DNA from: a virus
Reading direction: 5' to 3' (one strand)
Length of the DNA stretch: 36,347 nucleotides
IMG/VR virus record: IMGVR_UViG_3300047510_001781
Span: 1-36,347 of that record
The translations under genes were made by a program, and so were the position numbers. Positions 10,576 to 33,101 of this stretch are shown here, one piece after another. Under the pieces are notes generated by a model that was not told where the DNA came from, searched no databases, and saw only the letters and a program-made list of their open reading frames with translations. Each line of letters opens with the position of its first letter. Position 1 is the first letter of the stretch.

Positions 10576-13224
10576 TCAATATACTTTAATCAAATACTTA
10601 ACACGGACATATTTATTCATGATTGGAATCTTCTTCTGTGGAGAAAGATTTACTGTTGGAACTATTTGTTTGGTCGAGTTCAATGTAAATGTAGCAGTAT
10701 TTGAAGTAATTTGCAACTGTGATTGATTGAACTGAACAGTGAGAGTATTTCCGTATGTTGTTGGGAATGTTCCAGCAACTGTTCCTGAACCAGTGTTGTT
10801 TCCCCACCCATATTGTGTTTTTGGATCATTAAACGCAGTTTCAGAAATATAATGAGAATGAGTTAAAGCACCCCCAAATGCACCAGGATCAAAAGGATCT
10901 GTGGTAGCATTAGTCGAAGAGGTATCAATCATAGCTAAATGATCGCCAGCAGCATTATCTAATACAGGAGTATTTGATTTTGGAGATCTCCACCACCAAC
11001 CATAGGTTACTGTATCTGATGTATATGGAGCACCATACAATTCGTCAGCAGGTGATGGTCTATCGGCAATCCATCTTCCATCAACACCAGATCCAGATCC
11101 AGAATCGCCAGCGCCACCATAAGAAGGAACCCCCCACCCAATAAATGAAATATCTTCATCTGTTTCTTGACCAGTAAGCATGAAATGAGTATGCTGACCA
11201 ATTTTTGTGAACACATCATCAAGCGGCCCAACAGTTGCACTGATATATCCATTATTACCAATCACAAAATCTACATCTGTAGTAACACCACTGTATCCAG
11301 TAGTTCTAATAGCACCCAAAACATAGAAAGGTCCATCAATATCAGTTGGTGATCCATCATATACTTGCTCAGGTGGTCTAGCTCCTTGAGTGTCAACAGT
11401 ATCAATAATCCAGTTTCCTCCCGAACTTCCCACTTGATTGGCATCACCTGTTGATGCCGAAGATGGATCTGCTCCTTTGTATGTAGTGACGGAAGGCGAT
11501 GATGCATTATTTCCATCAATAGGACCTACGCCAACTAATTTTCTATTTCTATAGTTAGGTAATTTGAAAGTGCCAGAATATGAATTTGTAGATGAACTAT
11601 AAGCTCCACTACCACCATAAGTATTACCAATAACATTCCATAATTCATAATATGTACTAACTGTCAATTCTCTACCATCACATTCCATCCATCCAGGATA
11701 CCTAGATTCCATAGTTCCGTCAAGATCTCCCGATGCTCCTTCAAAAGAATCATCCTGGAATCTACTAATTGGCAGAACAGTTCCAATTGCCAATCCATCT
11801 TCTTTCTTTTCTTGACGAGCATCATTAGCTTGATTAATGACCATTAATCTACTATACCACTGACCTGTCATCAATTCTGTGGTTGGTGCCGTCGCCCAAG
11901 TTCCAACACTCCACGTTATACCAGTCAAATCACCAATAGAAACTGTTGTGCTAACAGAACCACCTAAAGTAGCACTACTGGTTAGTTGTAAACTAATTGT
12001 GTCTCCTTCTACAACATTAACAGGAGATGCAGAATATGTTCCGCCGTTTTTAGAAATTAACGCGCCATTAGTTGTAGTAACTTGAACTCCAGTTTGAATG
12101 CCAGTTATAGAAACAGCATTGCTATTAGTTGCTGTTGAAGGTGGTCTGTTTGTTCTATTTTTAAAAGTTACTGTATCTGGAGTTGTATCTGGGGTAGCAG
12201 AATTAAATATTTTCCATGGTTGTGGAGTGTAATCACCTACTTTAATTTGTGCCCATGTTTGATCTCCATAATTTGATCCAGCATACATCCAAATACGAAC
12301 AGTATCATTCAACTGAACTGTTGCTGGGAATGTTCCTATAGAACCATTATTAATTTGCACTCTTGGTAAAGGAGAAAGAGGTGTAGTTTCAACCCCAGAA
12401 GAATTAATTAATTTAGAAGATTCTAAAGTTACATTCAAAGTAACTCCAGAAGCAACACCAGTAACAGTATACAAATCTCCATTACTATTAACCGCAGAAG
12501 AATATTGCTGACCTGGCGTGGCACCTGTTATATTTTGAAAATTAAAAGTATCGATAGAAGAATCTGGAGGATTGCCAGTTGATACACTCCAGTTTACTGG
12601 CAAACCAGTTCCAATTGTTAAAGTAGTTGTAATAGAGGTGTTATTAGCAGTAGATGTTAACTGCCTTAATTGAATATAATCTCCATTAGAAACAGTAATA
12701 GATGAGCTAGTAAAACTAGCGCCACTCAACACACCATTTCCATCTACAGTTGCCGTGGAAGATTTTGCAATTTTTGCAGTATTTCCACCAGTTCCAGATC
12801 CACCATTACCCAGAACACTAGCAGTTGCGGTTGCAGATAATCCAGCAACTTGATATACTTCAGTAGTATATACATTAGTATTTAATGGTTGATCAGTTAA
12901 ATTTTCAAATGATGGTGGTGGGTTAGGAGCATTATTAGGAGCATTTTGAGTTGTGATATACCAAGTAGAACTAGCGCCACCTATGGATAAAGTTACATAT
13001 ACTTGTGTTGCGTATTCACTAGAAGAAGTTGCTCTAAGATCAATTACCGTTCCATTTTGGGCATTCCACCCAGTTAGAGTAGTAGTATATCCACTAGTAG
13101 AACTAATACCAGCAGTATTTGGAGTTGGTTGAGTTACCTTAATTGCGATATTAGATGCTGTTCCTATAACTGATATAGGAACATATAATCCACTACTAAG
13201 ACCGCTTACGGTTACATAAGCCAT
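10576..13224 (-). CDS. Tail-fibre/collar protein with HxH tip, 882 aa
   Basis: Residues 1-430 hold about four repeats of a roughly 100-residue beta domain, with recurring FxNxT (FENLT, FQNIT, FKNRT) strands and a later strand of the LSIGG type. Residues about 470-560 form a phage tail-collar domain (PGWMECDGRELTVSTYYELW to FKLPNYRNRKLVGVG). The C-terminal part has two HxH motifs (QHTHFM and THSHYI) and ends YVRVKYLIKVY, like the other two collar proteins here. HxH motifs bind iron in the T4 gp37 tip. Likely role: trimeric fibre or adhesin for host attachment. A T4-type late promoter and AGAGGA ribosome site precede it. Confidence 0.85.
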   Translation of the reverse strand: MAYVTVSGLSSGLYVPISVIGTASNIAIKVTQPTPNTAGISSTSGYTTTLTGWNAQNGTVIDLRATSSSEYATQVYVTLSIGGASSTWYITTQNAPNNAPNPPPSFENLTDQPLNTNVYTTEVYQVAGLSATATASVLGNGGSGTGGNTAKIAKSSTATVDGNGVLSGASFTSSSITVSNGDYIQLRQLTSTANNTSITTTLTIGTGLPVNWSVSTGNPPDSSIDTFNFQNITGATPGQQYSSAVNSNGDLYTVTGVASGVTLNVTLESSKLINSSGVETTPLSPLPRVQINNGSIGTFPATVQLNDTVRIWMYAGSNYGDQTWAQIKVGDYTPQPWKIFNSATPDTTPDTVTFKNRTNRPPSTATNSNAVSITGIQTGVQVTTTNGALISKNGGTYSASPVNVVEGDTISLQLTSSATLGGSVSTTVSIGDLTGITWSVGTWATAPTTELMTGQWYSRLMVINQANDARQEKKEDGLAIGTVLPISRFQDDSFEGASGDLDGTMESRYPGWMECDGRELTVSTYYELWNVIGNTYGGSGAYSSSTNSYSGTFKLPNYRNRKLVGVGPIDGNNASSPSVTTYKGADPSSASTGDANQVGSSGGNWIIDTVDTQGARPPEQVYDGSPTDIDGPFYVLGAIRTTGYSGVTTDVDFVIGNNGYISATVGPLDDVFTKIGQHTHFMLTGQETDEDISFIGWGVPSYGGAGDSGSGSGVDGRWIADRPSPADELYGAPYTSDTVTYGWWWRSPKSNTPVLDNAAGDHLAMIDTSSTNATTDPFDPGAFGGALTHSHYISETAFNDPKTQYGWGNNTGSGTVAGTFPTTYGNTLTVQFNQSQLQITSNTATFTLNSTKQIVPTVNLSPQKKIPIMNKYVRVKYLIKVY

Positions 13225-13247
13225 GTTATTTTATTCCTCTTCTAAGT

Positions 13248-13255
13248 TATTTATA
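13248..13255 (-). promoter_or_regulatory. T4-type late promoter TATAAATA
   Basis: The 8-base element reads TATAAATA on the minus strand and overlaps the stop codon of the upstream Ig-like gene. Predicted start near 13242 leaves an 18-base leader with AGAGGA before ATG 13224. It should be read by RNA polymerase carrying the phage late sigma factor (gp55 type) with sliding-clamp activation. Confidence 0.75.
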
Positions 13256-15086
13256 GGGGTGTGGAAGTATTGCTACTTGCATAATAAATTGTGTTTATTG
13301 TAGCACCAGTTTTATTTGAAAAAACCCAAGAATTTGGAGTTGAATCAATATTTACAGTTACAGGATAACTTGCACTATCGGTTCCACCATATCCAGAAAC
13401 ACTCATAGTAAAAGTAACCGAAGAACTATCTACAAAATCTTGAATATTTCCTGTAATAGTTTTTGTTTTAGTTCCAGAACTAATTGGTGTTGCAGTTCCA
13501 ACCCCTTGATCAATACTACCACTTAACGCATATGATGTTGTCCAAGATATAGTTACTGTTCCACCAAAATCAACTATATTAGGTTCTACCTGAAATAAAG
13601 TAATATTGGGTAGTTGTGGATTTACATAAACTCTTAGAGTTTCAGTTACACAAGCATCTACTGGATTACATGCTGTTAACGTATAATCACGATATCCATC
13701 ACCATATGTAGGTGCTCCAGGATAAGAACCAGCACCAGAAGTAGGAACTGTAGCAGTTAATTGAACTGATCCATCTTGTGCTAAATTGCTGCCAACCCCC
13801 TGATTAATAGAAACACTGCCTGTGGCATTACTCGTAGACCACGTTAAAGTAAATTGAGTATCTTGATCTGGTATTGTTGGATTATTTGAAAACGAATCGA
13901 TTGTAGGCAATGGATATGCTTGCACATAAGCAACTGCTGTTACAGTATATCCTGCAGAATTTACAACAGTAAATGTAAATGTATTCAATCCTGCAGTTGT
14001 AATAACTTTAGTAGTAGTTCCACTTGCAGCAACACTACCCACACCATTATCAATGCTTCTACTAGCTAAACCGCCGCCACCTCCCCAAGTAGAAGTCCAA
14101 GAAAGAGTTACACTATCACCAACACTAACTTCTGCTTGATTTGGTGATGATACTCCATTGATAGAAAGTGTTGCAGTTGGAACTCCAACTACTGTCACAT
14201 CAACACTAGCTGTAGTTGTTGATAATCTATTTGTTACTGATAAAGTATATGTTTTTGTTCCTGTAGTAGATAACAATCCTGTTAATAAAGGAACCCTAGT
14301 TCCAGATCCAGATCCAATATTATTATTTGCTGGATCATCAAGTTGACTGTCTGGAAAAGTAGAAAATTCTGTTAATGATGGTTGAGATTCTGCATCAGAA
14401 ACCGTCCAACTAAGGGTTGGAGAATCTATACCAACTGTAAGATACTGTTTATTTGTAGTTAATTGAGCTCCTGGAGTTGGAATCTGTAAGTTTAATGTGA
14501 ATGATGCTAAAGCATACACATCACCAGCATTCTGTAAATTTGCACTGCCAACTCCACCAGTGCTACTGAATTCAGGACTAGAAGAGATATTTGAAGAAAA
14601 AGTTAAATATCCATTAGTTTGTCTTTTATTAGAAGGAACAGTAACTGTAACATCTCTCCAAGATTCCCAATAGGTATCTTTTGCTCCATCTCCTCCTCCA
14701 TATGCACTTGACCCAGAACTACCCCAGGAATATGCTAATACATTAAATCCACCATCAGAAACAGCTAGATAAAAATCTTCACCAGAATTATTAGGTCTTT
14801 CATGACCATTCGAATCATTACCAGCTCTAACTTTACATGTTATACTTTCACAATATTTTAAATTACAAAGACCATAAGCAGATCTATTCGAAACTCTTGG
14901 GCTACTCCATGTTCCCATCATTAAATATGAATTACCTGTTGGTGTAACCATACCACCAACTTCGCCATTATCATCTCCTTGAGTAGTTCCTGGAGCACCT
15001 TCACCCGATCCATTTATTTTTGTGCCAGTAAGTTCAGAAAAAGTAAAATTTACTCCAGGATAGTAAGTAATGCTTAAATTTGCCAT
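13251..15086 (-). CDS. Ig-like repeat virion protein, paralog A, 611 aa
   Basis: The N-terminal 200 residues form a Gly/Ser-rich domain with three Cys (GLCNLKYCESITCKV). The rest is a series of Ig/PKD-like beta-sandwich repeats, each starting like PTIDSFS and containing a (V/S)xLxWxTS strand followed by SI(N/D)xGVG. The C-terminal 200 residues are nearly the same as in the next two genes and end in a half domain (FSNKTGATINTIYYASS). Such repeat stalks are typical of fibre or adhesin proteins exposed on the virion. No signal peptide. Its ATG lies 14 bases after the upstream stop with a weak ribosome site. Confidence 0.75.
   Translation of the reverse strand: MANLSITYYPGVNFTFSELTGTKINGSGEGAPGTTQGDDNGEVGGMVTPTGNSYLMMGTWSSPRVSNRSAYGLCNLKYCESITCKVRAGNDSNGHERPNNSGEDFYLAVSDGGFNVLAYSWGSSGSSAYGGGDGAKDTYWESWRDVTVTVPSNKRQTNGYLTFSSNISSSPEFSSTGGVGSANLQNAGDVYALASFTLNLQIPTPGAQLTTNKQYLTVGIDSPTLSWTVSDAESQPSLTEFSTFPDSQLDDPANNNIGSGSGTRVPLLTGLLSTTGTKTYTLSVTNRLSTTTASVDVTVVGVPTATLSINGVSSPNQAEVSVGDSVTLSWTSTWGGGGGLASRSIDNGVGSVAASGTTTKVITTAGLNTFTFTVVNSAGYTVTAVAYVQAYPLPTIDSFSNNPTIPDQDTQFTLTWSTSNATGSVSINQGVGSNLAQDGSVQLTATVPTSGAGSYPGAPTYGDGYRDYTLTACNPVDACVTETLRVYVNPQLPNITLFQVEPNIVDFGGTVTISWTTSYALSGSIDQGVGTATPISSGTKTKTITGNIQDFVDSSSVTFTMSVSGYGGTDSASYPVTVNIDSTPNSWVFSNKTGATINTIYYASSNTSTPL
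13692..13898. repeat. Direct repeat copy 1 in Ig-like paralog A
   Basis: Bases 13692-13754 and 13834-13898 are identical to 15542-15604 and 15684-15748 (63 and 65 bases), at a constant offset of 1,850. They code for the PTYGDGYRDYTL region and the DQDTQFTLTWSTS region of the Ig-like repeat. The near-identity over about 200 bases suggests recent duplication or gene conversion. Confidence 0.85.
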
Positions 15087-15100
15087 AACAGATACTTATT

Positions 15101-16870
15101 TTACAATGGAGTTGTTGTATTACTACTTGCGTAATATGTAGTGTTTATAATTGCACCAGTTTTATTAGTAAAAACCCAGGGATTTGGAGTTGTATCTATT
15201 AAAATTGTTACTGGAGTAGTTTGTGTTTCTGTTCCACCATATCCCTCCACAGATAAAGTATAACTTATACTACTATTTTCAACAAAATCTTGTATATTTC
15301 CTGTTGGGGTAAAAGTCTTGGTTCCACTTGCTATAGGAGTTACCGAACCAACACTATTATTAATACTACCAGTAAGAGCATAAGTAGTAGTATAAGAAAA
15401 AGTAACTGATTCTCCTAAATTAATTGTTTGTGGTTCTACCTGAAATAAAGTAATATTTGGTGGTTGTGGATTTACATAAACTCTCAAAGTACTTGTAACA
15501 CAACTATCAGCTGGATTACATGCTGTTAGAGTGTAATCTCTATATCCATCACCATATGTAGGTGCTCCAGGATAAGAACCAGCACCAGAAGTAGGAACTG
15601 TAGCTGTTATCTGTGCCGATCCATCTTGTGCTAAATTGCTGCCAACTCCTTGATTGATGGAAACGCTACCAGTAGCATTACTTGTAGACCACGTTAAAGT
15701 AAATTGAGTATCTTGATCTGGTATTGTTGGATTATTTGAAAACGAATCAATTGTAGGAGCTGGATATGCAGTTACTTCAACAGTAGCAGTAACTGATTTA
15801 GTAGCGCAATTGTTAGCAGTTAAAGTATATACAGTTGTGCCATTGGGGGGAGTAACTGTGACGGAACCAGAAGCTGCCACTGAACCTACACCTTGATTAA
15901 TAGATCTAGATCCATTAGTAGTTCCAGTAGTAGTCCAAGAAAGAGTGACAGTATCTCCTGTGGTTATAACACTATCACTTACCGTGAAAGAAGTAATAAC
16001 TGGATTTTGACAAACAGTAACAGTTTGAGATGAAGTTACTGGACCACCGCCAGGACCACTAGCAGATAATGTATATGTTGTTGTAGATGTAGGCGATACA
16101 TTAGTATTACCATCTACAGCAACTGTGCCAACCCCATTGTTTATCGAAACATTGTCAGCATAAGATGTAGTCCAAGCAAGATTAACACTATCACCTACGT
16201 TAATATTACTAGTTGGCGATTTAGTAAAACTATCAATTGTTGGTGCAGCAAAACTATATTCTATACGAACAGCACCATCTCCACCATCGCCAGCAGGTCC
16301 ACCTTGGTTACCTCTCCCACCTCCACCATAATTTCCCCCATTTGTATTTCCACCATTATTTGCATTTGTGCCACTTAATGTTGTTCCATTTCCACCACCA
16401 GAACCTCTTCCAGAATTATTATTTTGGTTCCCAGCACCACCACCCAATCCACCGTTATCATCATCAGTTCCATTTTGCCCATTATTTCCAACAGAACTGA
16501 TAATTGGAGTTCCACTAGCACCATTACCGCCAGCAGTTCCACCACCAGAATCATCTGTTCCTCTTTCACCACCAGCGCCAGTAACAAAAAATCCAGTTCC
16601 AGTTACTTCAGATTTTGATCCATTCTCCCCACCATCTCCTGATGGAGCTTTTCCACCAGAACCAACTCTAACAGATAGAGATGAACTGGATGTAATATTT
16701 ACAGTTGCACGACAAAATCCACCACCGCCGCCGCCGCCGCCGAGACCGTCTCCATCGGTATCATTAAATCCAGATCCACCTCCACCAATACAAGTAATTG
16801 TTACTTGTGTTACTGCAAAGGGTATTGCCCACGTAGATGTTCCAGGTGATGTAAAATTAACTGTTGGCAT
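15101..16870 (-). CDS. Glycine-rich Ig-like virion protein, paralog B, 589 aa
   Basis: Residues 1-200 form a glycine-rich head (starting MPTVNFTSPGTSTWAIPF, then long Gly/Asn/Asp stretches), like the glycine-rich receptor-binding domains of phage adhesins and gp38-type proteins. Residues 205-590 hold four Ig/PKD-like repeats with the motif SI(N/D)xGVG. The C-terminal part matches paralog A, ending YYASSNTTTPL. Likely a surface fibre or adhesin; the head would face the receptor. The ATG follows the upstream stop by 9 bases. The Gly-rich head is GC-richer than its surroundings in the complementary GGX codons. Confidence 0.75.
   Translation of the reverse strand: MPTVNFTSPGTSTWAIPFAVTQVTITCIGGGGSGFNDTDGDGLGGGGGGGGFCRATVNITSSSSLSVRVGSGGKAPSGDGGENGSKSEVTGTGFFVTGAGGERGTDDSGGGTAGGNGASGTPIISSVGNNGQNGTDDDNGGLGGGAGNQNNNSGRGSGGGNGTTLSGTNANNGGNTNGGNYGGGGRGNQGGPAGDGGDGAVRIEYSFAAPTIDSFTKSPTSNINVGDSVNLAWTTSYADNVSINNGVGTVAVDGNTNVSPTSTTTYTLSASGPGGGPVTSSQTVTVCQNPVITSFTVSDSVITTGDTVTLSWTTTGTTNGSRSINQGVGSVAASGSVTVTPPNGTTVYTLTANNCATKSVTATVEVTAYPAPTIDSFSNNPTIPDQDTQFTLTWSTSNATGSVSINQGVGSNLAQDGSAQITATVPTSGAGSYPGAPTYGDGYRDYTLTACNPADSCVTSTLRVYVNPQPPNITLFQVEPQTINLGESVTFSYTTTYALTGSINNSVGSVTPIASGTKTFTPTGNIQDFVENSSISYTLSVEGYGGTETQTTPVTILIDTTPNPWVFTNKTGAIINTTYYASSNTTTPL
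15542..15748. repeat. Direct repeat copy 2 in Ig-like paralog B
   Basis: The partner of 13692-13898, with two perfectly matching blocks of 63 and 65 bases at offset 1,850. A third, more diverged copy of the same coding region lies in paralog C around 17320-17520. Confidence 0.85.
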
Positions 16871-16879
16871 ATCTCAAAT

Positions 16880-18826
16880 TTATAACGGCGAAGTTCCGAG
16901 ACTACTTGCGTAGTAAGTAGTATCTATGGTTGCTCCTGTTTTATTGCTAAATGTCCACGTATCAGGAGTTGTATCGACATTAACAGTAATTGAATATGTT
17001 GCTGTATCTGTTCCACCAAATCCAGCGACACTCATGGTAAATGTAACGGAAGAATTATCTACAAAATCTTGAATATTTCCAGTAATTGTTTTCGTAGCAG
17101 ATCCAGAACTAGCGGGAGAAAGCGTTCCAACACCTTGATCTATAGATGCTGATGTTGTATAATCATTGCTCCACGTTATAGTTACAGTTTCCCCATAATC
17201 AATTGTGGATGGAGTTATAGAAAAATCTGGAATTGGTGGTTGAGGATTTACATATACTCTTTCAGTATCTGTGACACTAGTTCCTGCAAGATTTGTAGCA
17301 GTTAGAGTATAATCTCTATATCCGTCTCCGTATGTAGGTGCTCCAGGATATGCTCCAGCACCAGAAGTAGGAGCAGTAGCAGTTAATTGCGATTCTCCAT
17401 CTGCAGGTAAATTAGATCCAACACCTTGATTAATTGAGATGGTATTTGCATTACTCGTAGTCCATATTAATTTAAATTGCGTATCTTGATCTGCTGGGTT
17501 TGGATCTGCAGAAAAAGAATCAATAGTTGGTGGAGGAACCGCTTCAACATTAACTGTAGAAGTAATAGTTCCTGCAGTGCCTCCTGCTTGGTTAACAGCA
17601 GTTAAAACAAAACTATAAGTTCCAGCTGTAGTTGGAGTATATGTTGTTGAACTATCAACATTGCTGGAATTTGATATTAATGAACTTCCATTAACAGTTA
17701 AAGAAATACTTGTAGCATTTGTTGTTGTCCACGATAATGATATTGAATTATTTGTAGTTACATATGATGAAGGTGATGCTGTAAAAGTATCAATTACAGG
17801 TGGTTGATATAAAGTTACTGATCTACTAAGAGTAGCACCATCAATACCATTATATTGGGCAACTATAGTATAGGTAGTTGTTCCAGCGCCAACTCCTGTA
17901 TAAATTGCTGTGTATGCTTGACCATCTGTTCCGTTTCCTTGATTAACACCGTTGATTAAAACATTACCTGCTGTATTAGTAACCCATGTTAATTCCACAC
18001 TTTCACCAACTGTTCCTGTAACGTTCCCTTGTGTAGAAGTTCCAGTTCCAACAGCAATACCATAAAAATTAATTTCAGGATAAGTAATAATTACTCTACC
18101 CCCAGTTCCATCAGAATTACTTCCACCTATACTATAACCATATGATTCGCTATCAGTATCAGATAAAGTAGGTGCTGATGGGTGATATGTAGAATTGTAA
18201 GCAGAAGTTCCTGCCTGACCGCCAGCTGCACTAAAAGAATTATCTTGCCCAGCGCCGCCGCCAGCACCACCTGGCGATCCACCGCCGCCAGCGCCACCAC
18301 CAGATCCATCGCCAGATTTGTTGGTGCCATTACCACCACCACTAGCACTTATGGTTGTGCTTAAAGTTTTACTAGATCCATCCGTGCCAGTTCCACCAGT
18401 TCCAGAGTTTAAGCTACCGCCGCCTCCGCCGCCGCCACCACCAGCAATACAAATATAAGTGCTGCCCCAAAGAATAGCAGACGCGCCGCCACCTCCTCCT
18501 CCTGCTCCTGAAGATCCACTACCACCTGCATTTCCTCCAGTTCCACCAGGAAGAGATCCAGTTCCGCCAGGTCCACCGCCAGTTCCAGTAGATCCATTAT
18601 TACCACCCTGACCGCCCCCACCAACATAACAAGTTAATGTTTGCCCCGTAGAAGTTAATACAGCAGTTCCTGATAATTTTGCTCCATCACCAGAAGCGCC
18701 ACCAGGGCCGCCTGCATCATTACCACCCGATCCACCTGCTCCACCAAAAATTGTATAGGAAAATCCCTTTGTGCCAGTTGGAAGAGCTAATGTTGCTCCG
18801 TTTGATCCAGTATCGAATGTTGGCAT
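16880..18826 (-). CDS. Glycine-rich Ig-like virion protein, paralog C, 648 aa
   Basis: Residues 1-240 form a second glycine-rich head (start MPTFDTGSNGATLALPTGTK, long GGGG/GGSG tracts), different in detail from paralog B. Then come Ig/PKD-like repeats (TFTASPSSY to SLSWTTTNATSISLTV, and SADPNPADQDTQFKLIWTTS) and the shared C-terminus ending YYASSLGTSPL. The C-terminal 200 residues are more diverged than in A and B. Likely a fibre adhesin. The ATG lies 2 bases after the collar gene's stop; expression depends on the long late transcript. Confidence 0.75.
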   Translation of the reverse strand: MPTFDTGSNGATLALPTGTKGFSYTIFGGAGGSGGNDAGGPGGASGDGAKLSGTAVLTSTGQTLTCYVGGGGQGGNNGSTGTGGGPGGTGSLPGGTGGNAGGSGSSGAGGGGGGASAILWGSTYICIAGGGGGGGGGSLNSGTGGTGTDGSSKTLSTTISASGGGNGTNKSGDGSGGGAGGGGSPGGAGGGAGQDNSFSAAGGQAGTSAYNSTYHPSAPTLSDTDSESYGYSIGGSNSDGTGGRVIITYPEINFYGIAVGTGTSTQGNVTGTVGESVELTWVTNTAGNVLINGVNQGNGTDGQAYTAIYTGVGAGTTTYTIVAQYNGIDGATLSRSVTLYQPPVIDTFTASPSSYVTTNNSISLSWTTTNATSISLTVNGSSLISNSSNVDSSTTYTPTTAGTYSFVLTAVNQAGGTAGTITSTVNVEAVPPPTIDSFSADPNPADQDTQFKLIWTTSNANTISINQGVGSNLPADGESQLTATAPTSGAGAYPGAPTYGDGYRDYTLTATNLAGTSVTDTERVYVNPQPPIPDFSITPSTIDYGETVTITWSNDYTTSASIDQGVGTLSPASSGSATKTITGNIQDFVDNSSVTFTMSVAGFGGTDTATYSITVNVDTTPDTWTFSNKTGATIDTTYYASSLGTSPL

Positions 18827-20981: not shown

Positions 20982-23900
20982 TTAGATCTCCACTAACCAC
21001 CAACCTTGAGCGGAATTAGGAATACTTGACGAACTGCCATCATTTAGAGTGCTGCCTGCATAAATTAATCCAAACCCAGCATTAGGTGTTTGAATAACTA
21101 ATTCACCACCATCGTATCCACTTAAAGATGAAGTGAATGTTCCACCAAGAATAGTAGAACCAGTGTTGGATACATCTCCCTGAACTGCTATTCCAGTGGG
21201 TGCTCTCATTACCAATGATACATTATAGGTTAGATTTCCGCCAATATCAACAAATCTTATCATATCTCCAGTAACAGGGTTTGTCGGCAATTTAATAAGG
21301 GTGATTGCAGAAGGAGCAACAAAGTAGTTGACATTCGCAACAGCAGTTGTGACGGTTGCATTAACATATACCCACCTTCTAGCACCCGTGGTTCCATAGT
21401 AAGAGGTAATTCCACCAAGATCAATAGTTCCAGTATTATTGACTTTAAATCTAGTAACACTGTCTTGTTGAACTGTTAGATTACCTCCTTGAGTTCCACT
21501 ACCATTTACCAATAGATTGCCAGCATAAGTATTAGTTCCACTACCATTAGCAGATAGTGTTCCAGCAACTACAATATCACCCGATGAATTATTTAGAGAT
21601 AGTTTAGATGTCGTTCCATCTTCAGCAAAGATGTTGAAGTTTCCGCCATTAATAATGGTATTACCGTTTGCAGTGTCAACTTGGAACTTGATAGCAGGAG
21701 ATGCCGCACCATTAGTAATCTTGAAGAATTGAGTATTAACTGTAGTGCTACCATTTAATGTTAAAGTATTTTCTACTGTTAATGTTCCTGCAATATTAGT
21801 GTTACCGCTAGAAGCAGCAACTGTAAACTTGCCTGCCAGCGTATTTCCAAACGAGGCATCTGCCCCCAAACCAAATGCAATAGATCCAACTGCAGTGAGA
21901 CTGCCAGTTGTTGACTCAACTTCAAACTTAGTAACTGCAGGATCGCCACCATCAGTAAGTCTCAAGACTTGAATATTATTATCAAGTAGTGCAGCAACCT
22001 TGACGATTTCTAAATCAGATAGTCTCAAGTAATCATTAGTTGTAATAGCACCACCAAATTCTGCAGTAGTAACTTCATCTTCAGTTGTATTAATACCACC
22101 ATCATTAATAATCCAAGAAGCATTATCAAACTTAACAAACTTACTCAATAGAACACCATCTGGGTGATCTGTTCTCAAAACAGTTCCATCTTGAGCACGA
22201 AGAACTTTAATTCTTAAACCATTAGGATCTGCAGTGTTTGAAATATTAGTAATTTCAGTTACTTTGAGAAGTTCACTCTTAGCTTGATTGTCTGGTTGTT
22301 TTACAGTTCCTGTTGCTGCTGCTTGAGATACATTTGTTCCTGTTTGCGAGAAAGTAAATGTATTGTCGCCCGTAACAGTAATTGTTACGTTAGAACTTAA
22401 AGCAATATCAAAGTTGTTATCAGAGCAATCAATTTCTACTTTTAATCCAGTAGTAAAACCATGTGCTTTAGTTGTAGTAATCGTAGTAACGTTAGAATTT
22501 CTAGCAACAAAAGCAATCTGAGCAGTATGTCTTGCTCTATCAACTAAAATGTAATCACCTACCGAGAAATCATTTGCAGTAGCAATCTGATCTAATCCAA
22601 GGAAATATTCACTTGTAGTAGATCCAGAAACTTGAAACTGAGTTCCACCCCAGTATGTTGAACTTCCCGCGTCAATATTTTTGTTGATAATAGTATATTT
22701 ATAGAAGTCAATATTTCTATTCTGAATAGAACCTTCAGAATGAGAAACAGCAGTAGTTCCCCAAGCACCACGAACAACTTCAACAGTGCCAGAATTTAAA
22801 CCACCATTTAAAATGATATTGCCATCAACTTGTTGACTTGCTTTTACAAGCAACGAGTTATTAATAGTAGTTGTTCCACCATCAGAAGCAATACTTAGTT
22901 CACCAGCATTACGGCAGAGTTGAACAATAGAAGCACCACCAGTATCGAATAATCTCAACTCATTTGCTTGAGTAAAGATTCTTACAAACTGAGAACTTGT
23001 TATGGAAGGACCAGCACCAATTTCAATACTATCGCTATCAAAAATAGAGTTTCTATTTCCTACTCTAAAGAATCCAGTAGTGTTATTCCAAGCACCACCA
23101 ATAGTAACTTGCGAATTGTGTAATACTCCACCAGATAGTGTTCCTTGAGATACAGTGCCGATATCAATAACAGAAGTCTTGGAATTTCTATGAATATAAA
23201 GATTTGATGTAGTAGCAGCATCGCCAACTGTTAAAGTTTGCGTTGCTGCATAGTTACCAATATCAATTGTTTGTGTGCCTGTTGTAGCACTATTGTTACC
23301 AATATCTAGACTTAATACATCGCCAAAAGCATTAACTGTAGTAGCAGTCGTATTATAAAGATTTAAAGTAGTGTTAGTGGTATCTAGATTAGTTCCAGAA
23401 ATAGTAGTATTGCCCTTAACTTCTAAGTTGCCAGTAAGTCTACCATCTCCACGAACAACAAACTCTCTATCTAATAGAGCTTCATTAGATACATAACCAG
23501 TTACAGTAGTAGCATTGAAATTAGATGTAGTATCAGTTGTCGTAAAGTCAAATGTATCTTCAGTGCAATTTGTAATTGTAACTGAGTTTGAAGAGAATTG
23601 AGTATAACCAGATGTAGATACACTGATCTTTACATTTTCTCCATCAAAGAAACCATGGGGAACTCTTGTCAGAACAGTAACTGTAGATCCAGTCTTAGTT
23701 AGTTGCTCTAGTAATACAGGAAGTGTAGTATTTACACCTAGTCTTCCATAGAGAGAACCCGTTACACTTTCATTTACTGTATAAGAATTAGTTTGATTAC
23801 CTCTAGTGAGAGTAATATTTCCAGTAGCATATGCAGTGTTACCTACAGTCAACCCACTCAATTCATAACCAGTTTGGTTAGTAATGGTGATAGTATTGGT

Positions 23901-26900
23901 TCCTGAAACTGCGGTAACTCTATAAACACCACTCTTAGTAGAGTTAGGACCATCTTTAAATTCTACGTTAGCAAACCATGTAGTGTCTACAGAAGATAAT
24001 CCATGTGATTCTACAGTAGTGATAGTGCATGATGTAGTAGAAGTATTATTATATGATTGAATTGTTAAAGATGTAGTAGCAACTCTAAGTGCAGAAGAAA
24101 TGCCAGGTGTTTCACTATTACCACCAACAATAAATGCATCACGAACTGCTAGTTCAGTCTTAGCATTCGTTGTTTCCGTTAGGAACTTAGGAACACTTCT
24201 ACCAGAAATGTAAGTATTGCCAACAACATCTAAGTTAGCTCTTGGTTCAGTTTCTTCAGATACCCATGCAGTCTGATATGCAGAATGAGCAGCTCTAGCA
24301 ACTGTGTTAATACCTAACTTAAAGTCTCCATATGTAGAAGTTTCTGTTCTGATTACTTCAGCACCAATTACACCAAATTCTTTAAATGCTGTTCTAGATG
24401 AAGCAACTTCTATTGATGGTTGTGCTACTGAATTTACTGGATAACCGTTAGCATTATTTTGATTGATATCAAATACTGGTAAATTAGTATTAATTCTAAC
24501 AACAACTGAATCCGCTGCTCCGTCAAAAGGATCTACTTCATCAGAAACAACAGACCAGACTCCATTCAAATTAACTAGAGATCCAGTAGCTCCTTGAATT
24601 CTAATCTGAGAACTTGCAGTAATTCCTAAGGAATTATTTGAAACTCCAGTGTTATAATTTAAGCGAATCTTTGTTCCTGTTTCGCTACCCTGAATACCTA
24701 ATAGTTGTGGATCTGGATTCTCTGAAGTAGAATTTGTAGTTATTGAAACATAATCATTTGCAAAGATCCAACCCAAAGATCCAGTAAATAAAGTCTGCAA
24801 TCCTTTGAATTGCATATCACCAGACTTCAGAGGAGATTTAGATCCAAAGTTAGTATTCTGAGTTTGTGTAGGACCGTTAGTAGTAGTTCCAAACGTATTT
24901 GCAAAATCAGGTGCTCTATTAGATAGAGCAACTCGCATAGTGTAATCTTGAGATCCTCTGGTATTGAAATCAAAAATAGCAGAAGTAACAGTATTTTGGT
25001 GAATTAAAATATCACCCGTCTTTTGACCAGAAATATTAAATTCTAGATATGCATCATAACCAACTGCAGTTCCACTTCCAGTTACAACCTTAAGTGATGG
25101 ATAGTTTTCAGTAGTTCCAAATGCAGTAGCATTATTAATAATCAATGGAGAATTGAATGTGCTCTCCCCAGATCCATCAACTCCATTAACTGTGATAATA
25201 TCATTAAATGTTACAGGAGAATCAAAAGTAGTAACAAGTGTTCCAATATTGTCGGCATCATCAGCAGACTCGACTAATTGTGCTGATTCCAGGAACGTCT
25301 CTTCGCCTGTAATAGCGTTGATCTTACGGTTACCGATATAGAGGTCACCGTTGGAGTTCAGACCCGTGTAGAAGACAATACCAGCGTTTTCGCGCTTTGC
25401 TTGTGCATAGAAATCTTGAGTATCTGTAAGAACAACTTCTTGGCGAGCAGGGAAACCAGTCGAGTAGTTACCAGGACCAAAACCAAGATATTCAAACGTG
25501 TGGTTACCAGAACGAGCAATAGATGGTCTACGAAGTTCAAGATAAACTTTTTGTTCGAGTGGATAATCAGAGTCACCTCCAATAGGAATCTTTCTGGATT
25601 CGGATCCAGCAGAAGCAGATCCATTTTGTGCCTGAACAGCATTTTCGCCAGAATAAGTATAAGAACCAGTTCCAGGGTCAGCAATAAAGTCTAGAATTGT
25701 TTCTTTAGTCAATGATCCTTTAGCATCATTGACAGTAACTAAACCATGAACATAGTTATCTGCTGCAGAGATTGTTGCAGGTGGATCAAGTAACGTTTCT
25801 GATTCTGGATCAATTCCCTTATACCACTCTGGGTCATTTTTATAGAACTCAGGATAAATTTTAGAAATTGGTTGAGAGAACTTAAAGTTCTTGAAGTTAG
25901 TTCCGACACCAGAACCAGTAGGATATGGAGAAATATCACCACGAACACAAGTTAGATAGTAAACACCATCTTGTTGACCAGGAATTCTTCTACGAATTTC
26001 GTCGATATCAAAGATATAGAAAGTGCTTTCCATATCAGAAACATCTTCAACAGAAGCAACGGTATAAGAAACACCATTATCATCATTTACAGTATCACCA
26101 GGAGTTACAGTATAAGTGTTTGCTCCCTCAATGACATATAAATTATTTTTAATATCATTTCTACCTCCATTTGGGTTTTCCAATAGAGTTGCTGTAACAT
26201 CACCTTGGGTAAATACAGTTTCCGTGAAAGGACTATAGTTAATTTCAGAGTTGCCACTGAAATCTTTAAGAATCATGTAATAATTATTTTCATAAGCAAA
26301 GTAAGAGTGAACATATGCAGTTCCTTTGCTATTTCCATCCCAAGTAACTTTATTGGTATTATTGGAATTTGCTATGCTGTTAACAAATATACCATCTCCT
26401 CCTTCTGGAGCATCAATCTTAACAGTAGTGAATAACTTAGTCTTATAATCATTATTATCTACACCAATATCAAATACAGTTAATTCGAGATATTCTTTGC
26501 CTTGAATTTCTTTTTTCTTGGCAGATTGAATAGTAAAAGCAACCTTAGATGTTGTTTCAATTCTCTTTGCATAAGTAGAGTTATATGGATCATAGGTTGA
26601 AACAAAATTAGGATCTAACGTTACTAGTTCTGTCTTTGTTAAACCTAATCTTTCTCCGCTAGTAGGAGCATTAAATGTAGCAACTGTATTTCCAGCTGCT
26701 GTTGGCTTTAGAACAATTTTTTGTGGAAGAAGTCTTCTCTTTTCATCTGTTCTAATCTTAAATACAAAACCATTGAGAGGATCACGAACCGTTTTAAGAT
26801 TCTTAGGAATTACATAACGGAATCTGTAAATACGATCTTCGGGTGTTCTATTATCTTCGATTCTTTCATACCAAGAATCAGTAGTTCTTAGTCTGGTTTC

Positions 26901-29900
26901 ATAATCAGATTGCTTAATTCTAGGAAGAATCTGGTTTCCTGACTCTAACGTTTCGATATACCACAATCCTTCATCGCCTACTGCGGCATCATATTTCAAT
27001 GGTGAACGACGCTTATCGGCATAAGTATAGAATTGAGCAGTGCTTCCAGGAGCAAATGTTACTGGGTTGATATTATCAATAGCATCTGTAAATGTCAGGT
27101 GAATTGTGAAAGTTTTTGTTCCTGAGTATCTTGCATAGTAGTAAGTCTGTGGATCTACAACAGTTCCACCGAAGTTAGAAGCAAGAGTTGGTAGCGAAGA
27201 ACCTGTAATATCTGCTCCAGTTCTGAAAAACACTCTCTGTGGAGTGATATTATCAGAAGGAACATCAAATACATGAGGTCTATCTGTTTCAAGAATTGTG
27301 CTGGAACCAGACAATAAGTTTGTCTGATAGCGATGGAGATCATAATTAGTATCTAGAAGATACTGATAAACATCAATCTCAACATCTTTATCAATGCTAT
27401 CTGTTTCTGGCGAATAGATATAAATTCCAGCACAAGAGTTCTCTTCGCTAGTGGCAAGAAGCAGAGTTTGCTGGTTATCACCATTGAATCCAATACTGTT
27501 GGAGTAATCAAATGGATCTGTCTTTCTTCCTGGAGCAATTACATAATATGTTGTATTTGTATCAAATCCTTTTGGAAGACGAATCAAACGCTTATCTGGA
27601 TTTGTTCCTTTCTTTGCTCTAGGAACAAGTCTGACAGGAGTTCCAGTCTCCATATCGTGTGGGTTAGTAGTATTGTTTCCTTGAGAATCTTTTTCTACTA
27701 AGTTGAATAGGGTTGCTCTTTGTGCTAGAGAAGCAGTGCTTAATACCGAAGGAACACGAGGAACAGTTCCGATACCAGAATTTAAAATAGTATCAATAAT
27801 ATTGAAGTAAATAATAATACCATCTACAACACTAGCACATTCTCCACCTGGGGATGAGATTGATCCATCACCTAAAGCAGTGTAATTGTAGTCTTGAATT
27901 ACTGCTTCATCAGTTGTTGGTTCTAAATCAGTAGACCAAACTCCTGTTTCTAGTTTAACATACAAATTAACGCTAGGTAATGTAGAAGTAGCATTTACTG
28001 TTGTTCCTAAATCAAATCTAGATCCATAAACACCAAGTTGAATTTGATTAGCAGCAAGACCATTTTGACCATCACCAATTTTCTTGATGTATGCGTTGTC
28101 TGGAATGGTTGATGTTTGACTAACTACCGTGTTTTGATCGGCAGGGATGGTGTTAACAGATTCAACCTTCATGCCAATTGCCAATCCAATCGTGCTGGGA
28201 ACCGTAACAATTGAAGATCCAGATACAGTAGAAGCACCAGTAATATAAGTATCATGATTTCTCATTGCAGAAATCGCTAGATTTCTAACATACTTCCATG
28301 CTTCTAGGGTTTCTGTCTTCTCGTTTTCGATGTAATCTAATGTGAAACCATCTTGGTTGCCATCTGTAGTATCATTAGCAAGAGGAATTGCAGTATAGTA
28401 TGCTTCAGCAGCATTAATTACATTTTCATTTCCACCTAGTCTTAGATCAGAAACTACCGCTTCAACAATATATCCAATATCTCTCTTACACTTACTTGCT
28501 TCACTAACTTGTGACCACTGACCAGGATTTACAACAGGAAGATCTGATAGATTTCCATTAGATAGAGCAGTAATAAGAATATGTGATAATGTATCAATAG
28601 TATATCTTACATTTGCACAATCATAGGAACCATTAGTAACTACTGGCAGATTGTTTAAATTACCAGCAACTAGTGTTGTTGTAACAATACCAAACAAGTT
28701 AGTAATACTATCTTGAACATCTATACAAGTAGAAGCATTTCCAGACTCGTTGTAAGTAACGTCTGAACCACCAACACTATAACTTGGAGGACCAAAAGAT
28801 AAATTAAAATTCTTAGAGTAAAGTTGATTTGTTACTGCTTTCTTCGCTGCATCTCTAGCAGCATTAAAAGCAGTTACAGATTCAGTAACTTCATCAACTA
28901 AACCATTTGTTAGTAATGTTGTAGCGTTGGCATAATATTCTCTAGTAGCATCTACAGTAAATTCATTGCCACCCCAGAATAAATCTTGAGCAATAGAATC
29001 AACAATAAATCCAATATCTCTACGGCATTTTGCTTCACCGTCAAGAGGAGTTCCTCTCGTTTCAGTAATATCAGTTACATCGGTTGAATCTCCTGAAGAA
29101 ACTGCAGTTGTTACTATATTGGTTAATGTAGTAATAGATGCCTGAACATCATCACAAGATGCTGGATCTGTGTTGCTTCCTGTTAAAGGATCTGCTGTTA
29201 AAGTTAAATCTTTTGAGTATAACTGGTTTGCAACAGCTAACTTCATCATATCTCTTGCTTTATTAAAAGCAACGATAGATTCTGCCTCCTCTCCCACTAA
29301 ACCATTTGAAAGAGGATCTAGGTTTTCATCAAAATATTGTAACGCAAATTTTCTAGAATAAACATTACCAAGAATAGAAAGATCTAAAGATACTGCATCA
29401 ATAAAGAACCCAATATCTCTCTTACACTTAACTTCTCCTTCAGGAACAGTTCCTGTGTTCTCTGCAGGTAAACTAGACAAATTGCCAGCAGAAACAGAAG
29501 AAGTAACAATTGTGGTTAAAGTTGTAATTGCTAACTGAACGTTTGCACAAGATGCTGGATCTGTGTTGCTTCCTGTTAAAGGATCTGCAGTTACAGTAAG
29601 ATCTTTGACAGTTAACTGATTAGCAACAGCCAATTTCATCAAGTCTCTTGCCTTGTTGAAAGCAGTATTTGATTGTGTTTCCTCACCCTGCAATCCGTTT
29701 GTAATCCAAGCATTTCCTGCCTGATTAAAGTATTGTTGAATAAATTTTCTGCTATATTGATTGCTATTTTCTAGTGAAATATCGAGAGAAATAGCATCAA
29801 TAAAATATCCAATGTCTCTCTGACATTTTGCTGGATCAGGATTAACAAATCCAGGATGACTTATAGCAATTTGTGCGTAAGCTCCATTGATAATTTCCTG

Positions 29901-32900
29901 TCTATTAAGTTGAATTAGACGATATGCATCTTTATACCTAGATGATGACAAAGTTTGAGCATCTCCAGGATAATAAAAATCAGGATGCTGAATTGCAATT
30001 TCTGCTGCAGCTCTATCAATAATTTCTTGCTTGTTTAATTGAATGAGTCTGTAAGAATCCTTATAACGAGAGAATGCATTTGTTTGGGCATCTCCAGGAT
30101 AATAAAAATCAGGATGTGAAAGTGCAATAGCAGCTTCCGCTCTATCAATAATTTCTTGACGATTGGCAGTAATTAATCCTGAAGCATCTTTGTATCTACC
30201 AGCTGGATTATCATTATTATTGGGATCAATTTGAATAGTTGAAACATAAAATTCTCCAGTAGCTTGAGTAACTCCTGGATTATCTGGGAGATTAACTGTA
30301 AATGAATTGGCAGTTAATCCTGTTGCAAGAACAGTAAAATCACCATTATATGCAGATTGAGTAGCACCAGAAATACTGATAATATCACCTGCTACTAGAT
30401 TATGGGGATCCACTGTAGTAACAGTTGCAACTAAACCACTGCTCGTGATTGCATCATTTTGAGTATTTAAAATACTAGTTGAACCTAGTAAGTTTGAGAT
30501 TGCTTTCTTTGCCCAATCTTTTGCTCTTCTGAAAGCATAAACTGATTGAGGAATTTCACCAACCAAACCATCATCAATCAAATCCCCAACGCCATCAAAA
30601 TACGCTCTAGTTACTTCTACAATAGCAGCATTTCCACCATTATAGAGATCATCAGCAAGACCGTCAACAAAATAACCTAGGTCTCTCTTACACTTTTCTC
30701 CATCAGCAGCAGTTCCAGTCAAATTAGCATTCCAGTTAGGATATGCTTCGATCATCATGCTATATGCATACTGAATAATTTCATCGCGGTTTGATCTAAT
30801 TAAATTAGATGCATCACGATATCTACCAGTTTCAGATGTAATATTTGGGTTTACATACGAAATATTTTGAAGATCTGGAAATTTTTCTAGAATATATCCA
30901 AATGCTTCTGCTTGAATAAACTCTTTGTTTGATTCAATTAAATTAGCAGCATCTTGCTTTAGATTGTAATCAACTGTAAAGTCATCACCAGTTGGTTTGA
31001 GTGAAGTTAAAGAAGAAACCCATTTTTTAAATCCAGAATACTTTAGTTTTGCTTCTTTAGCGCCAGTGCTGTCTAGTTTAACATAGATTTTTTCATCTCT
31101 CTTCGCACCAAGACGATACCCACTAATAGTAGCAGCTGGTCTATCATCTGGGAAGATAGCGTCATCAGATCCAAGATACAATTTAGTTAAGTTTTCAGAA
31201 ACTTTACTCTTTTGAACATCAAAAACATAATATTGATTTTTGATAGTTTTAAGAGTAGATAAAGCTTTAGGAGGAACAATATCTGTAATGTAACCGCCCT
31301 TGTCTTGGTTGAAGGCAAACCCTTTGTAACCAACCGAGTGCATCGATGTGTTACCAAAGTTTGAGTTCGAGTTAGTGATAGACATATCACCACCAGACTC
31401 AAGCAGGAAGTGATCAGCAAAACCTACAGCGAAGATCGAAACGTTCTGAATGAAGGAGTCATCCGAAGCACGAACGTGGAAGTTTCTCCAATCATCTTTC
31501 CAGTATGCATCACCCTTAATGTGATAAGGAGTGGTAGCAAATGCATCAGTTAGAGGAGCTTGGTTCCATGTGTTACTAAACTCATCATAGCGAATGAATG
31601 CACGGTCATCTCTCTGTAGCGAAACACCCGTATACTGAGCGATAACCATCGACTTGAAACCAGTCGCTTTGCGACCATCTGCCCAGATACCACAAATACC
31701 CCAAGTTGAACGAATCGAAACGTTGAAGACGTATGGCGATGCTGATTCTACCGAGTCAACTTCTGCTTGAACCGTTGCATTAGGATCAAGGGCAATTGCA
31801 GAAGAAGCAGTATAAGTTGTTCCGCTAACTAGACCGAGACCAGTAGCGGTGGTTTGAATGCGATAAGTAAATTCTTTTGGATCAATAGGATTGATAGAAT
31901 ATACTTTAAATACTCCATTTAATGATACATTTAATCCATTATTTGCAATCGCTACATACTGACCAGGGAAAAATCCATGGTTGATTTTAGTTCTTACACT
32001 TACTTCAACGATTCCTGGTGGAGTAGAATCAACTACTTTAATTTCGTCAAGTCTGATAGCATCTTGCAGAGGACCTACAATTCTATTTTCCTGAACTCTG
32101 AAATCGAATTCTCTACTTCTAATAACAAGTAAATTCCACTTATTTTCATCGCTAGATGGAATTACATTAGTAGAAATTTGCGAAGCAACATATGCTTTAC
32201 CATTATATAATACTCGATCTCCAACAGAGTATGCAGTTGTTGAATCCCATGATTCGGAAACAGGAACGTTCGAACCTTCTACATATACGTCATCAATTGC
32301 TGGTTGATAATCACTGAATACTCTAGCAATTTTTCTGTAGAGTAATCCTAAATCTTCCTTATCAGCAAACACAAAGTTTGTGATTTTGTGGTGAGAAAAT
32401 TCAGGAATTGCTAGATTAGTATTATCATTTGGTTGAGTATAAACTTTACCAATTCCAAGAGGAGAACCAACATCAAATAGAGGTGAAGTATTCTCCAAAT
32501 CACCATCAAAAATCGTAAACTGCCAGAAGTAGCAACCACCTGTTACGTTGAACAGAGCTGTGCGAGGAATATCCTTATCTGCAGGATCTGGAACATAGAG
32601 TGGTCTGACATGAGTTCTTCTTAAGTCGCTACCAACTAGCGAAGTTCCTCTAGGAATAGTCGCGCCACCCTCACGACCATTAAATTTGTAAAGAATATTA
32701 TCTGGATCAGATAGATCAAAACTTACATTTTCATTTGCTTCCCACTCACCAGTTGACTGATTATACTGAAAAATAGGAAGATCCGCGACATTTTCAATGC
32801 CAGGGCGGTTATCAATATAGTGCTCACCAGGAGCAAGCATAATAGAAAACTGGTCAAAACGATCATTATCTACATCAGGTAGATATGAAAATCTAGCAGC

Positions 32901-33093: not shown

Positions 33094-33101
33094 TATTTAT
33101 A
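33094..33101 (-). promoter_or_regulatory. T4-type late promoter TATAAATA
   Basis: TATAAATA on the minus strand, directly after the terminator of the tRNA unit and about 40 bases before the giant gene's ATG (33053). The predicted start is near 33088. It should launch the long late transcript through the fibre block. Confidence 0.85.

Follow-up and report, generated by a model that had tools for sequence, protein, structure and literature searches.

Complementary parts of a single Ig-like domain are encoded at the C-terminal ends of three tandem proteins (A, B, and C) and at the N-terminus of the 882-aa gp12-like collar protein whose gene follows them in a stretch of viral DNA of 36,347 nucleotides (IMG/VR record IMGVR_UViG_3300047510_001781), the whole of which is referred to here as the window. 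The two parts are homologous to one domain and complement each other, relatives exist in which they are fused, and the upstream tails are under purifying selection. In our judgment it is likely that the N-terminal Ig-like domain, or socket, of the 882-aa protein is completed by the tail, or plug, of A, B, or C; interchangeable bodies would then be attached non-covalently to a trunk common to all of them.

An Ig-like domain divided between neighboring genes

The window is a tail-fiber cluster of a marine T4-like cyanophage and is contained in a 65-kb IMG/VR contig (IMGVR_UViG_3300044701_002512), where the copy of the 882-aa protein is 100% identical. Its genes lie on the minus strand in the order 4,023-aa tail protein, two collar proteins (419 and 296 aa), C, B, A, and the 882-aa collar protein; position and comparison with relatives place a 2OG-Fe(II) oxygenase next. 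This is the gene order of S-PM2, Syn1, S-H9-2, S-RIM32, and S-CAM4, in which two collar proteins, tandem bodies, a gp12-like protein, and a 2OG-Fe(II) oxygenase follow one another. The 882-aa protein (10576..13224, minus strand) matches the short tail fiber profile phrog_4924 (E 1e-168) and carries a C-terminal Phage Tail Collar domain at aa 510-561 (11542..11697, minus; PF07484, E 4.6e-9). By profile, collar domain, and gene order, it is thus a Kyanoviridae gp12-like short tail fiber or collar protein (phrog_4924; T4-like GC 740 in S-PM2 and Syn1), although the break in the window falls elsewhere in the domain than it does in S-PM2 and Syn1. The upstream bodies were delimited from their open reading frames and translations as A (611 aa, 13251..15086), B (589 aa, 15101..16870), and C (648 aa, 16880..18826), all on the minus strand; the N-termini of B (PF21722, E 4e-13) and C are glycine-rich. 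A and B (13251-16870, minus) also carry a nearly identical Ig-like module (IDSFSNNPTIPDQDTQFTLTWSTSNATGSVSINQGVGSNLAQDGS...) behind different N-termini, a sequence pattern that suggests module exchange.

The preliminary description of this sequence had proposed that A, B, and C stop after the first part of a beta domain and that the 882-aa protein starts with the second, and both points hold when examined with a 96-position domain profile built from 141 complete internal repeat copies in related phages. Before their stop codons, the translations end in ...STPNSWVFSNKTGATINTIYYASSNTSTPL (A), ...TTPNPWVFTNKTGAIINTTYYASSNTTTPL (B), and ...TTPDTWTFSNKTGATIDTTYYASSLGTSPL (C), and tails of this type correspond to domain positions 1-20 (profile-profile comparison, probability 90.8, E 1.2e-6). 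The last 31 aa of each protein, which hold the first strand(s) of the split domain, map to 13254..13346 in A, 15104..15196 in B, and 16883..16975 in C (minus strand; translations and alignment of this tail type). The 882-aa protein begins with MAYVTVSGLSSGLYVPISV, and collar N-termini of its type correspond to positions 22-96 (probability 96.7); in the protein itself, the socket (aa 1-92, 12949..13224, minus) matches profile positions 23-95 at aa 4-92 (E 7e-7), so that its match starts at position 22-23. Both parts are therefore homologous to one Ig-like domain, with ends that meet within about two profile positions. The motifs FENLT, FQNIT, and FKNRT, taken earlier to mark later complete copies, belong to three domains that the profile detects behind the incomplete one, at aa 104-216 (12577..12915; E 5e-19; AlphaFold2 ~91 pLDDT), aa 225-341 (12202..12552; E 4e-17), and aa 349-443 (11896..12180; E 4e-24), all on the minus strand. 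No known family for this domain was found in Pfam or NCBIfam, and no convincing sequence relative in the PDB.

We find it very hard to believe that frameshifting or read-through joins A to the 882-aa protein in a single chain. The genes are adjacent, and some relatives have same-frame junctions 0-3 bases apart, but in the window two stops (A's own and an in-frame TAA nine bases before the ATG at 13224), a 26-base gap, and a difference in frame separate the two genes; the preliminary description had cited the in-frame TAA and the frame difference in setting a simple frameshift aside. Moreover, B and C carry the same tail yet do not adjoin the 882-aa gene, and the collar gene has a late-promoter-like motif of its own. 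Fusion of A with the 882-aa gene by either route was accordingly discarded on the stops and the frame difference, and the junction does not have the overlapping frames and slip site that would join the two open reading frames.

Structure prediction is in keeping with a domain made of two parts. When residues 1-222 of the 882-aa protein were modeled with AlphaFold2 without the plug, the incomplete domain reached ~68 pLDDT (mean of reported blocks) versus ~91 for the intact second domain, a contrast that fits the split-domain model and is not decisive, as the low score may be due in part to the small number of related sequences (three) for the insert of the incomplete domain. Confident folding of each half alone had been named beforehand as evidence against pairing, and the window's incomplete domain is not confidently predicted by itself; missing only the first strand(s), it nevertheless comes out as Ig-like in the prediction and might be able to fold on its own. 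A natural type II junction (L010, described below) in which the last body and collar genes share a frame was also folded as a single chain, with its two stop codons read as Ser and 53 sequences in the alignment. Mean pLDDT was 88.9 over that model, about 90 in each part, and 73 at the junction. The two parts fold as one Ig-like domain with strands ordered much as in the intact domain that follows, and a PDB comparison matched the model to tandem Ig-type domains. This result favors a joined fold, with two-chain assembly outside the reach of a single-chain model.

Four states of the joint among cyanophages

To place the window among its relatives, 142 loci were assembled from GenBank phages and IMG/VR, 141 of them with a collar gene, and the 119 loci with a complete collar N-terminus, several of which are near-identical copies, were classified. 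They fall into four states: fused (15), split after position ~20 (3), split after ~51 (88), and split after ~84 (13). Type I, with the break after profile position ~20, comprises the window and two relatives. Type II (88 loci) accounts for most Kyanoviridae, including S-PM2 and Syn1; its upstream tails cover positions 1-51, matching the domain weakly by sequence (probability 20, E 1e-3), and its collar proteins start at positions 49-55. In type III (13 loci, Sf-CH1b among them), the upstream proteins carry positions 1-84 in addition to three complete domains, which leaves the last strand, MSYTTTWSVST, as the start of the collar protein. In the fused state, body, four consecutive domains, and collar form one gene, there are no separate upstream bodies, and the sequence is continuous across the place where the window is cut (in L035, ...FATILNATRSTAYTTTNSVTVSGINVSV...). 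Every split type is thus complementary, with the break after position ~20, ~51, or ~84 of 96 depending on the lineage, and the broken domain also occupies a different place in the array: type I breaks the first of four domains and type III the last, and the domain cut in type II is an additional one at the N-terminus. Whether the break always falls inside a domain was considered as a statistic and dropped, as linkers are short and a random cut would usually do likewise.

A tree of 62 collar C-terminal regions has one group per state, with types I, III, and fused in one strongly supported clade (100/100) and type II opposite, and requires at least three changes of state. The preliminary description had offered strand donation between proteins and an ancient gene split as alternative readings and had pointed to fused homologs in relatives as a check. 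Such homologs exist, with the same domain uninterrupted and without separate upstream proteins, and the gene has been split or fused more than once. The two readings are compatible, as is supported by this history: splitting or fusion recurred, and the parts were kept under selection as a matching pair, strand donation being the probable reason for the match.

A different arrangement can be imagined, in which the tails of A, B, and C pair mutually, the collar N-terminus completes itself within its own oligomer, and the two ends never meet. Oligomeric fibers are common in phages in general, and the tails are indeed common to the paralogs of one phage. However, tail-to-tail pairing leaves unexplained why the collar start and the tail end have shifted jointly in three lineages, why in the fused genes both ends form one continuous domain, and why some split operons have a single upstream body gene, and we regard it as improbable.

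The number of bodies per operon ranges from 1 to 5, and the idea of one body per trunk subunit with a fixed three-to-three stoichiometry was rejected as not general. Two further observations concern individual loci. Sf-CH1b (L006:3562-11675; PV340850.1) is of type III, while the tails of two other members of its sponge-associated set, Sf-CH11 and Sf-CH1a, are of type II. Within type II, one group (L013:9736-9751 and L010:8155-8168) has no frame change between the final body gene and the collar gene, whose ATG follows the stop after 0 or 3 bases; stop read-through at junctions of this kind would yield a fused chain.

Retention of the tails and a late-promoter-like motif

Complementarity alone proves nothing here because any fission gives complementary ends initially; the argument rests on their retention. 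None of the 211 upstream genes checked lacks a matching tail (type I, 8/8; type II, 182/182; type III, 21/21); these counts express presence and not independent detection, because those same genes were the source of the tail profiles for types I and II. In GenBank, the type II tail occurs in 147 copies in 49 records, or about three per genome. Among paralogs of one phage, the shared fraction of residues is 0.72 (type I) and 0.67 (type II) in the tail, 0.50 and 0.41 in the preceding 100 residues, and 0.21 and 0.16 in the first 200 aa; in type III, conservation of the tail among paralogs is no higher than that of the preceding region. At one locus (L009:4645-6259), two short upstream proteins have a common tail (0.63) behind 100 residues of which only 0.01 are shared, and the second of these has a complete domain and then the plug at normal tandem spacing. 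In 517 of 594 comparisons, a tail was closer to the other tails of its own phage than to the tail of its body's ortholog elsewhere.

The tails are under strong purifying selection, with a dN/dS of about 0.06-0.14 and strongly diverged synonymous sites. Since protein change is low while synonymous divergence is strong, neither decay nor recent DNA homogenization explains them, and DNA-level homogenization was ruled out on this ground. These data also bear on the possibility that the parts are relics of gene fission and duplication, with each protein folding adequately alone and its end having no joint function. The fused relatives do show that the gene was split or joined at some point, any fission would at first leave complementary ends, and the window's socket, short of its first strand(s) alone, is still predicted to be Ig-like. 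Relics would nevertheless not be expected to remain under strong purifying selection while their synonymous sites diverged, to persist in every upstream gene checked, or, in types I and II, to be the best conserved part of otherwise different proteins, and we consider this explanation unlikely. We give very little credence to the proposal that the shared 3' ends persist because their DNA homology lets recombination swap body modules, and not because the proteins pair. Diverse bodies with similar 3' ends and the Ig module common to A and B would suit it, but tail DNA identity is low for swapping (62-78% in the window), synonymous divergence is very high, and selection acts on the protein sequence.

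Coevolution of tail and socket was also considered as specific proof of pairing and was abandoned as such. Tail divergence correlates with socket divergence (r 0.77; partial r 0.70 after controlling for the collar C-terminus, with a permutation p of about 0.0002), but an internal collar domain tracks the tail equally well (r 0.80).

Separate genes for body and trunk may also be separately expressed. A motif search located the late-promoter-like sequence TATAAATA at 13248..13255 (minus strand), where it overlaps A's stop codon shortly before the collar gene, and again at 33094-33101 (minus), 41 bases ahead of the 4,023-aa gene, at a possible start of the tail-fiber cluster. The late motif described for cyanophages is NATAAATA (PMC2984593). 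In the window, the frequency of the eight-base motif by itself is not above chance. Across loci, the 60 bases before the collar gene contain ATAAATA in 3/3 type I and 21/36 type II loci, and in the same interval this sequence was found upstream of 0/82 body genes, 0/8 fused genes, and 0/7 type III collar genes, with a background frequency of 0.75% of windows. From this placement, the trunk could be transcribed on its own in type I and many type II phages, and the candidate late promoter may allow its separate expression.

A proposed joint between fiber bodies and a common trunk

In the mechanism that we propose, an Ig-like beta-sandwich would receive its first strand(s) from the C-terminal segment of A, B, or C and the remainder from the N-terminus of the 882-aa collar protein. 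After separate translation, the parts would assemble into one domain without a covalent bond, linking body to trunk. Several bodies would presumably compete for the same socket, so that alternative receptor-binding bodies could be displayed on one trunk; the stoichiometry and the direction of the fiber are likewise matters on which we can only infer. That the bodies are glycine-rich and otherwise diverse would suggest that they may contact the receptor. The idea of a trimeric trunk like that of T4 gp12, whose three sockets could be filled by A, B, and C at once, is no more than an analogy. The broader claim is that a naturally split Ig-like domain is a universal plug and socket of phage tail fibers whose break has moved between lineages, that one trunk with its own late promoter displays alternative receptor-binding bodies, and that body genes are exchangeable if the plug is kept; we see this claim as evenly balanced between being right and being wrong.

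Combination of an Ig-like domain with a segment of another protein has known parallels. In chaperone-usher pili, donor-strand complementation completes an Ig-like domain that lacks a strand with a segment of another protein, and the joint inferred here is the same in this respect: the acceptor lacks strand(s) present in its homologs, as the 882-aa protein starts at domain position 22-23, and the missing strand(s) are found on other proteins, the tails of A, B, and C (positions 1-20). In the pili, however, the donated strand comes from an N-terminal extension and assembly depends on an usher and on a chaperone in the periplasm, whereas in the phages the donated part is C-terminal, amounts to anything between one strand and most of the domain, and occurs fused to the other part in some relatives. 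Assembly of phage virions is cytoplasmic, and no chaperone or usher is annotated in the five syntenic phage regions (S-PM2, Syn1, S-H9-2, S-RIM32, and S-CAM4). In the SpyTag/SpyCatcher system, an Ig-like domain is cut into a short tag and a remainder that reassemble; that pair is engineered and forms an isopeptide bond, whereas the phage joint is natural and proposed to be non-covalent. The long tail fiber of T4 (gp34, gp35, gp36, and gp37) consists of several gene products joined end to end, and it resembles the proposed phage fiber in being built from several gene products. We know of no T4 fiber joint described as one repeat domain split across two proteins with fused relatives.

In the annotations and papers examined, there was no description of the incomplete N-terminal domain of the gp12-like fiber and its matching upstream tails. 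The open-access literature searched yielded no precedent for donor strands, split domains, fused relatives, or a moving break in phage fibers, which does not prove that none exists. The building of host-recognition fibers in marine T4-like phages is largely unknown, and several T4 fiber genes have no recognizable counterpart in these phages (PMC2984593). If the proposed joint is real, it would tell which fiber proteins attach to which and account for tandem gene sets with a common C-terminus. It would also represent a natural split beta-sandwich whose cut site has moved in evolution while both parts remained compatible.

Two minor features of the cluster can be added. Open frames opposite the glycine-rich part of B (16237-16913, plus strand) are probably a side effect of composition. 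The 4,023-aa protein (20982-33053, minus strand) contains several diverged copies of a repeat around CKRDIGYFIDAISLDL...NQLYSKDLTLTADPLTGSNTDPASC.
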